DNA of 32,850 nt from Desulfurococcales archaeon (GTDB lineage: Archaea; Thermoproteota; Thermoprotei_A; Sulfolobales; Acidilobaceae): positions 1-32,850 of the forward strand of contig WAOS01000014.1 in assembly GCA_015521185.1 (NCBI GenBank), in the 5' to 3' direction. How positions within the stretch are numbered: the stretch's first letter is position 1; every line of letters starts with the position of its first letter. Shown piece by piece: positions 4,646 through 17,922 of the stretch. The notes beneath the pieces are model-generated. The model saw nothing but the letters and a program-made list of their open reading frames with translations, was not told where the DNA came from and ran no database searches. Position numbers and translations under genes: made by a program.

Positions 4646-6685
4646 TCACCTCTCCAGCTCGAGGGCTCCCAGCTCTGTGACTATGCCGTGGTAGCCTGGT
4701 GGTACGAGTATTGTCGAGTCTGGCGCTTCTATCACTGCGGGCCCCTCAACCCTGTATCCCTCGGCCATCGCGTTGTAGTCGTATACCGCGGCATTATGCC
4801 ACCCACCCTGGAAGAATACTTCCCTCTCGCCCTTGAGGGGGTCTCCGGCCTGCTTGGGTGCGCGTAGGAGCGGTTTTCTCGTTAGGCCGATCGCTTCGAC
4901 CCTAACGAGGACTATCTCAACGTCTTCCTCTTCAACTGAGAACCCGTATCTCGCAGCGTGAACCCTATGGAACTCCTCGAGGGTCCGCTCCACACTGCCC
5001 TGGTAGGGAACCCTTAGAGTGTAGGCTTGGCCCCAGTACTTTGCGTCCACGAGTCTCCGCGTTACTATGCTGCCGGGCTCGACCCCCCAGTCCTGGAGTG
5101 TGCGGACCGCCTCCGCCTCGAGTCGTGCTAGGACCCTCTCTAGCTCGTCATCGCTGATATCGCCGGCCCTTTTAGCTATCGAGGCATGCCTCTCCACCTT
5201 GTAGTCCGCCACTAGAAGGCCGAGAGCGCTGAACACTCCGGGCCTCGGCGGGACTAGCACGCGGGATACTCCAACCTCTGCCGCGAGCTCTGCAGCGTGG
5301 AGAGGGCCGGCGCCTCCGAAAGCGAAAAGTGTGAAGAGCCTCGGGTCGTGACCCCTCTCTAGGGTGACCAGCCTCACAGCTCTACCCATGACAGTGTTGG
5401 CGAGGCCGATTATCATCCAGGCCGCCTCTACTACGGTGACTCCTAGGGGCTTTGCTATCATATCGCGTATAGCCCTCCACGCTAGATCCCTCCTCAAGCG
5501 TATTCCTCCGGAGATGGTTTCTGGAAGCCTGCCGAGTACGAGGTTAGCGTCTGTTACCGTGGGTTCTGCTCCTCCCCGGCCGTAGCAGGCTGGGCCGGGG
5601 TCTGCGCCAGCGCTTTTGGGGCCTATCCTCAGGCCACCTCCGGGGTCGACCCAGGCTATCGTTCCTCCGCCGGCGGAGACTTCTGCTAGGTCTATATGGG
5701 GGAAGCGGACCGGGTAGCCGCTCCCCCTTATTACGCGGCCCATGTGAACTTTTCCGCCCACCTCGTAGGACTCTACTATCTCGGGCTCGCCACGTACGAT
5801 GCTGGAGGCCTTAGCCGTGGTCCCGCCCATATCGAAGCCTATGCTATACTCTATCCCGGCGAGCCTGGAGAAGTATGCGACCGCCACAGCTCCCGCGCTG
5901 GGGCCCGACTCTATGAAGGCCGCCGGCCTCTCCACGGCCTCTCCGACCTCGACTATGCCGCCGCTCGACTGCATAATGAGCAGCTTACCCTCGAAGCCCT
6001 CGCGGCGGAGCCTGGAGACAAGGTCTTCTAGGTACGAGGATAATACGGGCTTGAGGAGGCCGTTCACAACGGCGGTGCTCGTCCTCTCATACTCCATCGG
6101 CGCAGGGTCGACACGGCTCCCCGTGACAACGTAGGCGGTCGGGCACTCGTCCCTGATCGCTTCGGCAGCTTGTTCCTCGTGCGAGGGGTTCCTGTATGAG
6201 TGGAGGAATGATACTACGAAGACCCTCGTCCCCTCGGAGCACTCGCGAGAAGCCGCCTTCCTAACTTCTTCCACGTCCAGCTCCTCAATAACTCGGCCTT
6301 CACTGGTTATTCTCCCCCGAACACCGTAGCGCCTCTTCCTAGGGATGAGAGGTTTGGGCTTGCTGAAGTTGGGGTCGTAGAGGCTCGGCCTGTTCTGCCT
6401 CCCAATCTCTATGACGTCTTCGAAGCCCGCATTTGTTATTAGGGCTGCGCGGGGAGGCTCAATGCCTATCTGGCCAAGAAACATGTTGGTTCCGATCGTC
6501 GTGGCATGGATCAGAAGGTCTATTTTGACTAGTGGGCCCACAGCCATTCTTAGGCCCGCCAGTATCCCCTTTGCCGGCTCTCTCGGCGTTGTGGGAACTT
6601 TCATTATTCCGAGCTCGCTTGTTTCCTCGTTGAGAAACACTATGTCGGTGAATGTACCGCCGACATCGACGCCCACTCTATACAC
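4646..6685 (-). CDS. hyuA: Hydantoinase/oxoprolinase/acetone-carboxylase-family subunit A
   Basis: RVGVDVGGTFTDIVFLNEET, HATTIGTNMFLGQ, SSGGIV, ESGPSAGAVAVAYF, FDMGGTTAKAS, FAFGGAGPLHAAELA. Confidence 0.94.
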   Translation of the reverse strand: MYRVGVDVGGTFTDIVFLNEETSELGIMKVPTTPREPAKGILAGLRMAVGPLVKIDLLIHATTIGTNMFLGQIGIEPPRAALITNAGFEDVIEIGRQNRPSLYDPNFSKPKPLIPRKRRYGVRGRITSEGRVIEELDVEEVRKAASRECSEGTRVFVVSFLHSYRNPSHEEQAAEAIRDECPTAYVVTGSRVDPAPMEYERTSTAVVNGLLKPVLSSYLEDLVSRLRREGFEGKLLIMQSSGGIVEVGEAVERPAAFIESGPSAGAVAVAYFSRLAGIEYSIGFDMGGTTAKASSIVRGEPEIVESYEVGGKVHMGRVIRGSGYPVRFPHIDLAEVSAGGGTIAWVDPGGGLRIGPKSAGADPGPACYGRGGAEPTVTDANLVLGRLPETISGGIRLRRDLAWRAIRDMIAKPLGVTVVEAAWMIIGLANTVMGRAVRLVTLERGHDPRLFTLFAFGGAGPLHAAELAAEVGVSRVLVPPRPGVFSALGLLVADYKVERHASIAKRAGDISDDELERVLARLEAEAVRTLQDWGVEPGSIVTRRLVDAKYWGQAYTLRVPYQGSVERTLEEFHRVHAARYGFSVEEEDVEIVLVRVEAIGLTRKPLLRAPKQAGDPLKGEREVFFQGGWHNAAVYDYNAMAEGYRVEGPAVIEAPDSTILVPPGYHGIVTELGALELER

Positions 6686-12087: not shown

Positions 12088-12603
12088 TTAAGGGCCACAC
12101 CCGATCTTTCTAGCCAGCTCGGACTCCCCGAGCCTTCTCTTGTATATTATTTCCACGCCCGGATCGTAACGGTAGCTTCTAAACCATTTGGGTGGTCCGT
12201 ATTGGAGACCTACGACCCTTAGGCTTACGCCTACGCTATTGGCCATGGCCCTAGCATAGCTTACTGGTATCTTCGGCTTCTTAGGCATAGACCATAGTAG
12301 CACGAGCATGTCGCCCACGGCCGGCATTCCCGCCCTCTGGTAGAAGATAATTTCTAGCGCCTCTTTTACTGCCTTCACAGGCTCGGGGATACCTCTCATG
12401 GTTGCAGCACCCGCGAGCGCTTCTTCCAGCTGGCGGGGATCCCTTGTTCGTTCAATGACGGGGGCGGCTCTAGACGCGTATACTACGAGGCCGAATCCCT
12501 CGTGATCGGAAGCGCACCTCTCAGCGTTTTGCGTCACAAAGCTCCTCTGAAACTCGATGTATTGCCTGGCGCTCCGACTAATGTCTACAGCGTATATGAT
12601 CAT
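12088..12603 (-). CDS. vWA-domain-like protein with incomplete MIDAS (vWA-2)
   Basis: IIYAVDISRSARQY (DxSxS), ATMRGIPEPVKAVKEAL; the position expected for the late Asp reads VLLWSMPKK. ATGA overlap with the upstream vWA gene. Confidence 0.7.
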   Translation of the reverse strand: MIIYAVDISRSARQYIEFQRSFVTQNAERCASDHEGFGLVVYASRAAPVIERTRDPRQLEEALAGAATMRGIPEPVKAVKEALEIIFYQRAGMPAVGDMLVLLWSMPKKPKIPVSYARAMANSVGVSLRVVGLQYGPPKWFRSYRYDPGVEIIYKRRLGESELARKIGCGP

Positions 12604-13169
12604 CTGGAGACGCCCCCGACTAGCTTTACGAGCCCGCTTGTGAGGTCCTCGTAACTGCCTACCTCGACCCAGTGGGCTATGTCTTTGTACTGATGATACG
12701 GTCCGGCGAGCTGGGTCTCCTCTATCTGGCCTATCACGAAGATGTAGAGGTCAACGCCGGACTGCTTCGCATATGATAGAGCGTATTCGAGGGGGACGCC
12801 CATGTTATAGTCTCCGTCTGTTATCACTGCTACTACCTTTTTGTGGTCGTGGAGAGCCCTCATAACCTTAACAGCCTCTACCACTGCATCTCCTGGGGCA
12901 GACCCCAGGAAGGTCCTTCCTAGAAGCCTAAGCGCCGAGAGGAAGTGAGAGATGTTCCTCGTTGGATATACGAGGGGGACTGCCCACTCCGCGAAAACTA
13001 CGAGACCCGTTTTAAGGCCCTCCTCTATTATTGCCCTCCTCGCGCTGATAGCAACAGAGTTTATGGAGGCTTGGAGCTTGCTCGGCTTGAAATTAGAGTA
13101 TATCTTGTCCATGCTTATTGATATGTCGAGAGCGTAGACCAGCGAGGGCATTCCTTGCTCACCTCCCAA
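12600..13169 (-). CDS. vWA-domain protein with intact MIDAS (vWA-1)
   Basis: LVYALDISISMDKIY (DxSxS), RTFLGSAPGDAVVEAVKVM, VVAVITDGDYNMGVPLEYAL. Confidence 0.85.
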   Translation of the reverse strand: MGGEQGMPSLVYALDISISMDKIYSNFKPSKLQASINSVAISARRAIIEEGLKTGLVVFAEWAVPLVYPTRNISHFLSALRLLGRTFLGSAPGDAVVEAVKVMRALHDHKKVVAVITDGDYNMGVPLEYALSYAKQSGVDLYIFVIGQIEETQLAGPYHQYKDIAHWVEVGSYEDLTSGLVKLVGGVSR

Positions 13170-13938
13170 GATCCGTGAAAGCGCTAGGTGGTAGAATCAG
13201 TGGGACGCTCTTGAGGGAGTATACTATGTCAAGGGCTTCTGACGTGCTTATGAGCTGCCGAGCTCTCGCCTCGTAGAGTAACTCTACAGCACCGACTGTC
13301 TTGATCCCGAAGCCCTCGAGGGCTTCTCGAAGCCTCTGGTCTACCGTTAGCACCGGAATGTTGCACGTTTTAGCCGCGTTAACCGTCGATTTCTCCGCCT
13401 TGCTGAGAAGTATCTTAGAGTTAATCTTCTCCTTCATCCTCGCGCAGGGTTCTATAGCTTCGATAGCCAGAACATGGCGGAGGATCCCCTTATGAATTGA
13501 GTATGCCTCCCAGAGCCTCTGCTCGTTCTCTAAGTCAGCAGCCATGTAGAGCCGCGTTCCCCCCTCGCGCAGCTTCCACAGCAAGTTGCCCAAGTACGAC
13601 GTGTAGACGGTGAATAAGGCTGAGGGGGCTAGTAGTATCTGGTTGGGTATCTCCGTTCTGGCAGGCTTTTGACTGCTCCCTAGTAGCGGTACAGTCCCGT
13701 TCTCCAGGAAATACGATATAACTCTATTGCATGGCGAGTCTGTAAACTCGCATATGTAGCTCAGCGTTGCGTTGCCGGACCGGTAAAGCATTAGGCCTAT
13801 ATGGTGAAGGTCTAGCTCGTCCATGAGCCTCCTAAGCGCGTCTCTTACCGCCTCGCTAACACTAGCATATATCCCGAGATCTACTAGTCTGCGTAGTCTC
13901 TCCTCGAGCACCCCTGTTATATCGACGCTTACAACCAT
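13159..13938 (-). CDS. Ribbon-helix-helix N-terminus fused to a PIN-like domain
   Basis: N-term VVSVDITGVLEERLRRLVDLGIYASVSEAVRDALRRLM is a textbook RHH; C-term LSKAEKSTVNAAKTCNIPVLTVDQRLREALEGFGIKTVGAVELLYEARARQLIS is PIN/DUF3368-like. Confidence 0.78.
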   Translation of the reverse strand: MVVSVDITGVLEERLRRLVDLGIYASVSEAVRDALRRLMDELDLHHIGLMLYRSGNATLSYICEFTDSPCNRVISYFLENGTVPLLGSSQKPARTEIPNQILLAPSALFTVYTSYLGNLLWKLREGGTRLYMAADLENEQRLWEAYSIHKGILRHVLAIEAIEPCARMKEKINSKILLSKAEKSTVNAAKTCNIPVLTVDQRLREALEGFGIKTVGAVELLYEARARQLISTSEALDIVYSLKSVPLILPPSAFTDLGR

Positions 13939-14094: not shown

Positions 14095-17000
14095 TTACGG
14101 AGGAGTCCTTCCCCTCGAAATCACGCTCATAGCAACGATTGCGGCCAGCAGTACCACTATGCCGACGCTGGTCATAGTGGTGACTCTACCCTTCACGGCG
14201 TTGTTGCTCTCCTCTATCTTCTGCGAGAGGTCCTTGGTAGCCTTGTCGAGCTTCTGGGAGAGCGTGTTGTTCAGGTTGTCGATAGCGTTGAGTATCTGCT
14301 TGGTGTTGGTGCTCACCAGGTTGGTTAGGGTCGTGTTGAGCGACTTGGTCTCGTTGTAGAGCTCGCCTAGCTTTGCGGTAAAGGTCTTGTTTAGACTGTC
14401 AATGTAGCCCTCTATGTCCTCGGCCTTGGTGTTGATTAGTCCCTTGACGGAGGCGGCCTGGGTTCCGACCGCGGATATTATCTGGCTCTTGCTCTCGTTG
14501 ATGAGCATGCTTATGGCGTCTAGCTTAGTCATTGTCTCGTTCTGGAACATGCTTAGCCTGTTGCAGAGCCTCATGCCGAAGCTGGTCACGTTCGCGCTTA
14601 GGTTTGCTATGCTCTCTAGCACCTCCTCCTTAGCGACGCTTAGGTTGTAGGCTAGCATCTCATAGACAGCGTTTATAGTCGCGGTTATGTTGCCCTCGCT
14701 GGTCTTGATCTGCGCGATCAGGGCGCCGGTCTTGTTCTCGATTAGGCCTGTTAGGGTCGCGTTTAGGTTGTTGATGAGCTGGGTTATGTTAGCCTCCATG
14801 GTTCCTAGCTTGCTCAGTATTATCGCGGTGTTGTTGTCAACAGCGGTTATGAGCAGGCCTAGCTGCTCCAGAGTGGTGTTTAGCTTGATGAGTATCTCCT
14901 CGCCGTAAGCCTCTAGTGCTAGGTAGACCATTGCGATGTTGTTGTTGATCTCCTCGGTGCTATTTTCGATCTGCCTGCTTATGCTGTTGGTCGTGTCGAC
15001 GACTATGGTGAGGTTCGCATTGATCGCGTTGGCAAGGTTGATTAGCGCGCTTACATCAGCGTAGGTCTCGTTGAGAGTGTCGCTTACTACTACCAGCTTA
15101 CCGTTGATGCTCTCTAGCTTGAGGTTGAGGTTGTTGTAGACGTCGTTGATCAGGTTCTCGATCTCCACCTTTCCATTATTGACCTCAGTGATTACCTCGT
15201 TGAACAGGTCCTCTAGACTGCTCGCTACCGTCAGGCTGGTGAACGCCATGTCACTCTTGGGTATCATGAAGAACTTCGGCTGTACCTCAGCATATACCTT
15301 AATGAGCAGCTCGTCACCCTTCACGTCGGGCGTCACAGCGAACCTGTAGTGCCAGATGCCAGGCTCTCCAGTGTACTGCATCTTAGCGTTATCTAGGAGC
15401 TTCACCAGATTACCGCCGTCGTAGTAGTATACTGTTAGGTTGACCTCTATCTTGTGCGGCTTCACGGTGTCGTTATCGAGTAGCTGGCCACCTAGGTATA
15501 CAATTGCATACACGTCTACAGTGTCGCCTGGATAGGTTAGCTTTAGGGTGCCAGTGTAGACCTCAACCTTGACGTTCGGGGTCACGCTGTAGTAGATGTT
15601 GATTATCTCCTCGACAGTGTCGTTATAGTAGATTGTCAGAGTGTAGTTGCCGGGGCCATTGTCCTCTAGGAACTTACTTATGTTTGCGGTTATGTTGAAC
15701 GTACCATTTGCTGCAGTTGTGAAGGTCTCGCTGTAGCTGAGTAGCGTGCCGGTCTTATGGATTATGTAGCTTACAGTAGCGCTGCCCGGCCATCCATAGC
15801 CGAGCACTGTTACGTTCATTGCCTCTCCTAGGAATATCTGTAGCTTGTACTCTACTTTGCCGTTGAGTATAAGCTCGACTGGGTCAATAGCCCTCGCGGT
15901 TTCCCTAATGTATACTTCCTTACTGTGGCTACCATAGTAGGTTGTAGAGTCGTTGGCTACCACATAGTAGTCGCCGTATGGAGCCACTGGCACGTCGACT
16001 GTTCCCTTGAAGTAGCCGTTCGTGAAGGTTACGCTTGCAGCCTCCCAGTAGGTTGTATTGTCTGTGGTTATGCTTATGCTTCCACTGGTGAAGCTTACTC
16101 CTATTACCTCGACTGTGAAGTTTGTTTCGGCATAGTCTGGAAGCTGGTCCTTCCAGGGTGTTGCGGCCGGGTATGCAGGTGTCGCAGGAATCTGGTCTAC
16201 TCTGGCTGCGTCGGGGGTGAACCCGTAGCCGGTCAATAGTAGTGGCGCCGGGTTCACGAAGACCTTGTATACGCTGCCGTCGAGCACGAAGTTGAATGGC
16301 TGCGTGCTGAAGCCTCTGTTAGTTGTTGTTGTTCCGTGGGCGCTGAAGTGGAACGGGCTGTTGGCCGGGTCGACGTCTGCAGGTATCTGGAATAGGCTGA
16401 AGAACGTTCCATTGTCGTAGACGTGTATGCTGTCTCCTCCGCTTATGTCGGCTATGAACTTTAGGGTGGCCACGTCTGCTCCGCCGTAGAATATGGTCGC
16501 GGTTATGTTCTCATTCATGAATCCGTGTCCCTTGATCAGCACGTAGTCTCCGGGCGCAGTATTAGTGGTCTCATAGAAGTTGCCGAAGGTGCCATCGTTC
16601 TTGACTAGGGAGATCTCAAGGTACGGGTGTACTACTATGATGGATGGCCCGCTTGTTACAGTGGCGTTGGTAGCGGGCAGTCCCCTCACGTTGTCGCCCT
16701 GCTTCGCTACTACGAAGAACTGCCTACCTCCATACTGTGCTTCTGGCAGCGTTACTGTGACTGTAGCGTTGCCATATGTTGTATCCACGGTCGCGCTAGT
16801 GTCTATCTGGACTAGCTTACCGTCCCCGTACACGAATAGGCATATGTGGACAGGGTTAGTATTGCTTACGAAGTTGTACAGCTTTACGGTTATCTGGTCG
16901 CCTGGGTTAATCTCTGTAGTATTCCCAGCTACCTCAGTGTAGCCTGTTAGCTCAACGCTCGGGAATATGTTCATAGTCTTGCCTAGGCTACCTATGTTAA

Positions 17001-17922
17001 TGGTTATCTCGGGTATCGTGACCGTGCCTGGCACGTCCGAGAACTCGTGCTGTCCTGTCGTATAGTTGTAGGTAACGTTTATGGCATTGTTGAATGTCTC
17101 CTTGAACTTCTTAGCCTGGAACGTGAAGTTGAAGGACGCATAAGATACAGGTATGCCCTGGACCGTAATCTGAGCGTTTACTCCGCCCAGCGCGAAGTCC
17201 TTGAGAGTACCATTAATCTTGGCTACCGTTGTGGTTATTGTGCTGCTGTTAATGTTGTCTAGAATATCGCTCTTCCAGGTTGTGGTGTTAGTGACGGTCT
17301 GGTTGAAGAGCTCTAGGCTCTCGATGTTGTTATACAGGAGTATTGTGAAGTTCTGCGTGGTCAGGTCTATTGTTGGCGCTATGGTGGATATGTCCACGGT
17401 TAGGTTAAGCGTGTTGTTGGTCTCTATTACGGTGTCGGTGTAGCTTGTCTTCGATAGGTTGTAGGTATTCGCCTTGAATATCTCGGATACATTGGTTACC
17501 ACGTAGAACCTGTTGCTTGCCGCCACGTTAGACCCGTCAGTCACCTTGATGTAGAGATAACCGCTCTCACCACCTAGTAGCTTGTTTACTACAGTATTGT
17601 TGATGTACAGATATCCGGCTATGTAGTCAGCGTCAGCTATGTAGATTCCCCTGACTAGGAGCAGGTCGCTTACGCCGGGCTGGATATTTCCGTATCCGTT
17701 GTTGCTAACGTAGATGTCGGCTGTGGTTCCTACCCAGCCGAACGTGTTCTTTAGGTAGGTTAGGTTCACGTAGAAGTATACGGTATTGTTCATGCTTACT
17801 ACTTCGGTTATTACTGTTACTCCTGTGTCTGTTGCTGCTACGGGCACACTTGGAGCGTAGGCTAGTGCCATGAGCGCTACCATGAGTGCCGCGAATACTA
17901 TCTTTGCCGCGTTCATGGTCAT
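14095..17922 (-). CDS. S-layer-like giant surface glycoprotein: signal peptide, Ig-like/beta ectodomains, long coiled-coil stalk, C-terminal TM anchor
   Basis: 1275 aa; MTMNAAKIVFAALMVALMALAYAPSVPVAA signal; very many N-x-S/T sequons; coiled coil over roughly the last 320 residues before TM VGIVVLLAAIVAMSVI. Strong TATA (ttttata, about 17983-17990) and GGGGGAGGG Shine-Dalgarno. Confidence 0.88.
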   Translation of the reverse strand: MTMNAAKIVFAALMVALMALAYAPSVPVAATDTGVTVITEVVSMNNTVYFYVNLTYLKNTFGWVGTTADIYVSNNGYGNIQPGVSDLLLVRGIYIADADYIAGYLYINNTVVNKLLGGESGYLYIKVTDGSNVAASNRFYVVTNVSEIFKANTYNLSKTSYTDTVIETNNTLNLTVDISTIAPTIDLTTQNFTILLYNNIESLELFNQTVTNTTTWKSDILDNINSSTITTTVAKINGTLKDFALGGVNAQITVQGIPVSYASFNFTFQAKKFKETFNNAINVTYNYTTGQHEFSDVPGTVTIPEITINIGSLGKTMNIFPSVELTGYTEVAGNTTEINPGDQITVKLYNFVSNTNPVHICLFVYGDGKLVQIDTSATVDTTYGNATVTVTLPEAQYGGRQFFVVAKQGDNVRGLPATNATVTSGPSIIVVHPYLEISLVKNDGTFGNFYETTNTAPGDYVLIKGHGFMNENITATIFYGGADVATLKFIADISGGDSIHVYDNGTFFSLFQIPADVDPANSPFHFSAHGTTTTNRGFSTQPFNFVLDGSVYKVFVNPAPLLLTGYGFTPDAARVDQIPATPAYPAATPWKDQLPDYAETNFTVEVIGVSFTSGSISITTDNTTYWEAASVTFTNGYFKGTVDVPVAPYGDYYVVANDSTTYYGSHSKEVYIRETARAIDPVELILNGKVEYKLQIFLGEAMNVTVLGYGWPGSATVSYIIHKTGTLLSYSETFTTAANGTFNITANISKFLEDNGPGNYTLTIYYNDTVEEIINIYYSVTPNVKVEVYTGTLKLTYPGDTVDVYAIVYLGGQLLDNDTVKPHKIEVNLTVYYYDGGNLVKLLDNAKMQYTGEPGIWHYRFAVTPDVKGDELLIKVYAEVQPKFFMIPKSDMAFTSLTVASSLEDLFNEVITEVNNGKVEIENLINDVYNNLNLKLESINGKLVVVSDTLNETYADVSALINLANAINANLTIVVDTTNSISRQIENSTEEINNNIAMVYLALEAYGEEILIKLNTTLEQLGLLITAVDNNTAIILSKLGTMEANITQLINNLNATLTGLIENKTGALIAQIKTSEGNITATINAVYEMLAYNLSVAKEEVLESIANLSANVTSFGMRLCNRLSMFQNETMTKLDAISMLINESKSQIISAVGTQAASVKGLINTKAEDIEGYIDSLNKTFTAKLGELYNETKSLNTTLTNLVSTNTKQILNAIDNLNNTLSQKLDKATKDLSQKIEESNNAVKGRVTTMTSVGIVVLLAAIVAMSVISRGRTPP

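Follow-up and report, generated by a model that had tools for sequence, protein, structure and literature searches.

A probable S-layer protein of the tetrabrachion type with a long hendecad stalk in a Desulfurococcales archaeon

Most descriptions of tetrabrachion concern Staphylothermus only, and the Pfam model of the protein is limited to a 49-aa piece of the stalk. The stretch of DNA analysed here (the window, 32,850 nucleotides of contig WAOS01000014.1, which is part of a 1.05-Mb assembly that is 77% complete) encodes a large protein with 11-residue repeats in its C-terminal part. A preliminary description had proposed from these repeats that the cell surface uses a related stalked S-layer architecture. 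The question that this locus raises is therefore whether the protein is a homologue of tetrabrachion, and what its stalk is like.

The gene lies on the minus strand, as do all features given below, at positions 14095..17922; it was delimited as an open reading frame of 1275 aa and assigned to the tetrabrachion type of S-layer protein by homology of its head. An N-terminal hydrophobic segment, recognised by eye, comprises residues 1-30 (17833..17922; MTMNAAKIVFAALMVALMALAYAPSVPVAA) and is a probable signal peptide. It is followed by the head, or arm (residues 31-903, 15214..17832), which carries 31 N-glycosylation sequons and is almost all-beta in an AlphaFold2 model that, with a mean pLDDT of 57, is confident in parts only. 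With the head model as query, Foldseek found proteins with serial beta-sandwich domains, e.g. alpha-2-macroglobulin, at a TM-score of about 0.1, and these matches are read only as an indication of tandem beta sandwiches. In the AlphaFold2 model a helix begins at residue 903. The stalk (residues 904-1249, 14176..15213) has about 346 residues without proline and, at the textbook helix rise of 0.148 nm per residue that was used for all stalk lengths, extends over about 51 nm. A C-terminal transmembrane anchor (residues 1250-1268, 14119..14175) follows with a mean Kyte-Doolittle value of 2.6 over 19 residues.

Because any coiled coil can resemble another, homology to tetrabrachion was tested with the head and not with the stalk. 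The profile was restricted to residues 30-904 and comprised 11 members, i.e. aligned homologues from related genomes; an exact match to the 1FE6/1YBK stalk identified the tetrabrachion of S. marinus. The profile scored 54.4 bits against this tetrabrachion, whereas 500 shuffled tetrabrachion heads reached 7.8 bits at most, the first-pass HMM score carrying a large composition correction of 45.7 bits. Tetrabrachion was the sole match in the whole S. marinus genome (E = 1.3e-12), a second tetrabrachion-bearing genome gave one match (E = 2.1e-28), and in the genome of the source organism only one protein was matched; in total, matches were found in 32 of 216 genomes of the order. The aligned heads have the motifs NPGD, LPxxxYGG, APGDYxLxKGxGF and VEVIG in common and in the same order. 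The 11-member profile was needed for this result, as a profile of the four closest sequences did not find tetrabrachion. PDB searches that started from one sequence, either the entire protein or its stalk, likewise missed tetrabrachion, since the divergence is too great for one sequence, and brought up nothing but generic coils and apolipoproteins at E>0.02. The Pfam model PF11401 ('Tetrabrachion'), a 49-aa stalk segment with a cut-off of 27 bits, had no match in the window protein or elsewhere in its genome and matched in 3 of the 216 genomes. The proposal of a related stalked S-layer architecture is thus upheld by a head homology that is independent of the repeats, to which the stalk, the C-terminal transmembrane helix and a switch of periodicity along the stalk are added.

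A homologue of tetrabrachion could nevertheless have the role of SlaB in Sulfolobus, where the stalk bears a separate SlaA-like canopy and is not itself the lattice. SlaB of Sulfolobales, compared here by its description, likewise combines beta-sandwich domains, a C-terminal coiled coil and a C-terminal transmembrane anchor, and is trimeric (PMC10903991), and a distant similarity between SlaB and tetrabrachion is given in a review (PMC5744192). However, SlaB requires SlaA and is much smaller in head and stalk (475 aa in all, three beta domains and a helix of 132 residues; PMC10903991), whereas the head of the window protein alone has about 870 residues and matches the arm of tetrabrachion. A SlaB-like role is accordingly considered unlikely, and a tetrabrachion-type lattice protein is preferred.

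The gene order around the S-layer gene is conserved in many assemblies: after the gene of the stalked S-layer protein comes one for a protein with a ribbon-helix-helix (RHH) N-terminus and a PIN-like C-terminal domain, and then two VWA genes. In the window the RHH-PIN gene is located at 13159..13938 (NCBIfam ParD-like 4e-6, which is below the cut-off; AlphaFold2 pLDDT 90; PIN and RNase P matches in Foldseek at E 3e-3 and weaker). The genes for VWA-domain protein 1 (12600..13169; Pfam VWA 6.6e-8) and VWA-like protein 2 (12088..12603; Pfam VWA_2 5e-3, below the cut-off) were assigned with the additional help of synteny, and two VWA-type genes (12088-13169 in the window) come after RHH-PIN in most syntenic loci. 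Syntenic loci were collected via the conserved RHH-PIN neighbour gene; all loci found in this way are from metagenome assemblies of archaea that bear the labels Acidilobaceae, Desulfurococcales, Sulfolobales, Pyrodictiaceae, Thermodiscus, Staphylothermus or Thermoproteota, and the source organism is therefore placed among these hyperthermophiles. The RHH-PIN fusion of the window and its A6 homologues is conserved beside S-layer or subtilase genes and is a possible regulator of the S-layer locus. The first acidic position of the PIN-like domain is Asp in 22 of 23 RHH-PIN proteins and Ala in the window copy.

In other assemblies the gene before RHH-PIN encodes a subtilase of about 1310 aa. These stalkless 1310-aa genes had been candidates for SlaA-like canopy proteins, a reading that was ruled out by their Pfam assignment as subtilases. 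The STABLE protease, which sits on the stalk of tetrabrachion, is also a subtilase (PMC5744192). STABLE-like subtilase genes adjoin genes of stalked surface proteins at L006 (G013), L018 (G017), L104 (G065) and L098 (G157), and the source genome encodes a STABLE-like subtilase elsewhere than at the S-layer locus. Genome position supports a putative partnership of stalk and protease in the source lineage, and a STABLE-like protease may dock on the stalk of the window protein.

The least expected observation was a second, membrane-anchored stalk protein of 950 aa in the source genome outside the window (L059:6128-8977; G000:C50:16127-18976). Together with a syntenic homologue of 990 aa (L062:7289-10258 in G004), it has a short N-terminal beta-like region and about 700 residues of hendecads without proline, with a period of 3.67 that is coherent over 695 and 735 residues, respectively (power 45 and 51). 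The second stalk is nearly headless and, at about 103 nm, twice as long as the S-layer stalk. Both proteins are 37% identical overall and nearly identical in their last 36 or so residues. Upstream of the long stalk gene, and a few hundred bases apart from each other, are located a ThiF/E1-like gene (L059:3552-4403; Pfam 4e-50) and a ubiquitin-conjugating-like gene (4753-5292; UQ_con 2.5e-9). In a different taxonomic family within the same order, ORF 2053-3603 of L107 (G160:C57) encodes a further hendecad tract, which is free of proline over 517 residues or more (period 3.69).

The presence of several stalked membrane proteins per genome implies that the family is not single-purpose, and the window protein could in principle be a long-stalked adhesin or another surface protein of the tetrabrachion family instead of the lattice protein. 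This explanation is regarded as very unlikely, for the head profile has one match each in the source genome and in the tetrabrachion-bearing genomes, and the S-layer gene belongs to a conserved cassette with the RHH-PIN and VWA genes.

The repeats that had given rise to the proposal are for the greater part as they were described. The eight 11-mers at residues 1035-1122 (14557-14820, minus strand) are present letter for letter, and a Fourier analysis of the residues ILMVFYW agreed with the expected periodicity of 3.67 and not 3.5: the block has a period of 3.66 with a power of 14.3, compared to 0.7 at 3.5, and the peak was reached by none of 1000 shuffles. The second block (residues 1177-1243) indeed continues the hendecads (period 3.66, power 14.2 vs 0.5 at 3.5). 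The gapless parse is valid for roughly seven of the units, but the eighth, VTSFGMRLCNR, fits better in a shifted register. Hydrophobic residues, reported for positions 1, 5 and 8, occupy positions 1 and 5 to 94% and 92% in the two blocks, a level matched by none of 20,000 shuffles, whereas position 8 is hydrophobic in only five of eight units (62%). As controls, no window of the head exceeded 69%, and parsing the two blocks as a/d heptads gave 44% and 32% at best. A register search over residues 905-1243 gave a score of 47.7 (shuffles 0.0 +/- 4.8, maximum 10.1) and yielded three hendecad tracts with slips between them. A single register spans tract 1 (residues 1022-1105, 14608..14859, period 3.66), which contains most of the first block; it ends in a slip, with position 1 at residue 1108 after a step of 7 residues, beyond which lies tract 2 (residues 1106-1167, 14422..14607). 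Tract 3 (residues 1168-1243, 14194..14421) was found by register search as well as Fourier analysis and holds the second block. The upper stalk, residues 904-1021 (14860..15213), which make up about the first 115 of the stalk and were not part of the preliminary description, has a period of 3.51-3.59, i.e. towards heptads, and clear hendecads are absent from it. For this reason the average period of the whole stalk is 3.63-3.655. In none of 18 cases is a sequon Asn of the stalk located at the core positions 1, 5 or 8. That the region is a disordered linker or a normal heptad coil whose 11-residue pattern arose from composition by chance, a view for which the richness in Asn/Thr/Ser and the weak apolipoprotein matches of stalk regions (to be expected of any amphipathic helix) could be adduced, is refuted by both shuffle controls, by a power at 3.5 below 1.5 and by the 346 residues without proline, and can practically be dismissed.

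Taken together, the window protein is a tetrabrachion homologue and probably the main S-layer protein of a hyperthermophilic archaeon from the Acidilobaceae/Desulfurococcales group, with a head on a membrane-anchored, putatively self-associating stalk of about 51 nm, and would form the lattice of the source cell. The exported chain would fold into a head of about 870 residues of tandem beta domains that forms arms or a canopy. Under the head, one long helix of about 346 residues would pair in parallel with its own copies to build the stalk, in a tetramer by analogy to tetrabrachion or possibly in a trimer. The C-terminal transmembrane helix would fix the stalk in the cell membrane, and such an anchored stalk would hold the canopy about 50 nm above the membrane. 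With its near-heptad spacing, the upper third of the stalk is expected to be straight to left-handed, and the lower two thirds, with their 11-residue spacing, straight to right-handed. The right-handedness of the lower part, the top being excluded, is suggested by the period. As an alpha-helix has a period of its own of about 3.62 residues, to which periods of 3.63-3.66 are close, the superhelix would be shallow and its right-handed twist slight.

Among 15 full-length homologues, the stalk varies between 114 and 597 residues (17-88 nm) and its period between 3.49 and 3.665. In a tree of the heads, the stalks that are most heptad-like fall into one clade, and hendecad stalks are found to either side of the midpoint root; stalk length and twist are read as changing faster than the head. 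The stalk of one homologue (L012:1691-2115) contains tandem repeats of 33 bp and 165 bp, corresponding to growth by whole hendecads; a search of the window stalk for tandem repeats found none. A joint reading, for and against which the chances appear even, is that of one family with a conserved head and a stalk free in length (17-88 nm) and in the sense of its superhelix, from heptad-like to hendecad. Both pseudo-periplasm height and pillar handedness would then be tunable, with growth by 33-bp duplications as suggested by the L012 array, and the second stalk of about 103 nm would extend to roughly double the distance of the canopy.

By the link through the head, tetrabrachion becomes a single branch within a broader S-layer family that extends over several families of the same order. 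Natural stalks that differ in length and helical period but share one head constitute a comparative set for the question of what fixes the height of an S-layer and the handedness of its coiled coils at high temperatures. Moreover, the family is a source of new hendecad coils, which are presumably very thermostable.

Compared to known systems, other hendecad families, such as the hendecad coiled-coil families of Martinez-Goikoetxea and Lupas 2023 as cited in PMC11676326 and the undecads in a bacterial adhesin (PMC6191539), have the 11-residue spacing in common with the window protein, but the proteins are unrelated and the resemblance is confined to the repeat. With tetrabrachion, the window protein shares the homologous head, a long stalk, the C-terminal transmembrane helix and a similar density of sequons. 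In both proteins about the first 110-120 residues of the stalk are near-heptad, followed by periods of 3.61-3.70, and a published fragment scan of tetrabrachion also found that periodicity differs along the stalk (PMC11676326). In direct alignments, the window stalk scored 86.7 and 93.2 bits against two tetrabrachion stalks, more than any of 100 register-preserving shuffles, which peaked at 70.1 and 73.2 bits. The octamer RLCNRLSM is identical at residue 1118 of the window stalk (about 14548-14571) and at residue 1348 of L058, a closer homologue of tetrabrachion that is recognised by PF11401; the two positions are not equivalent, and the octamer may be either chance or a short functional site. 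Processing at Glu700/Gly701 yields the heavy and the light chains of S. marinus tetrabrachion. Neither the window protein nor L058 has Glu-Gly at the corresponding site of the alignment, and since L058 is matched by PF11401 the site does not define the family. The proline of the tetrabrachion stalk and the 49-aa PF11401 segment are likewise absent from the window protein. The stalk of about 51 nm is shorter than that of tetrabrachion (about 67-70 nm), for which the same residue rule predicts 67 nm and electron microscopy gave 70 nm according to a review covering Peters 1995/1996 and Stetefeld 2000 (PMC5744192). The window protein is a relative of the known tetrabrachion and not something new.
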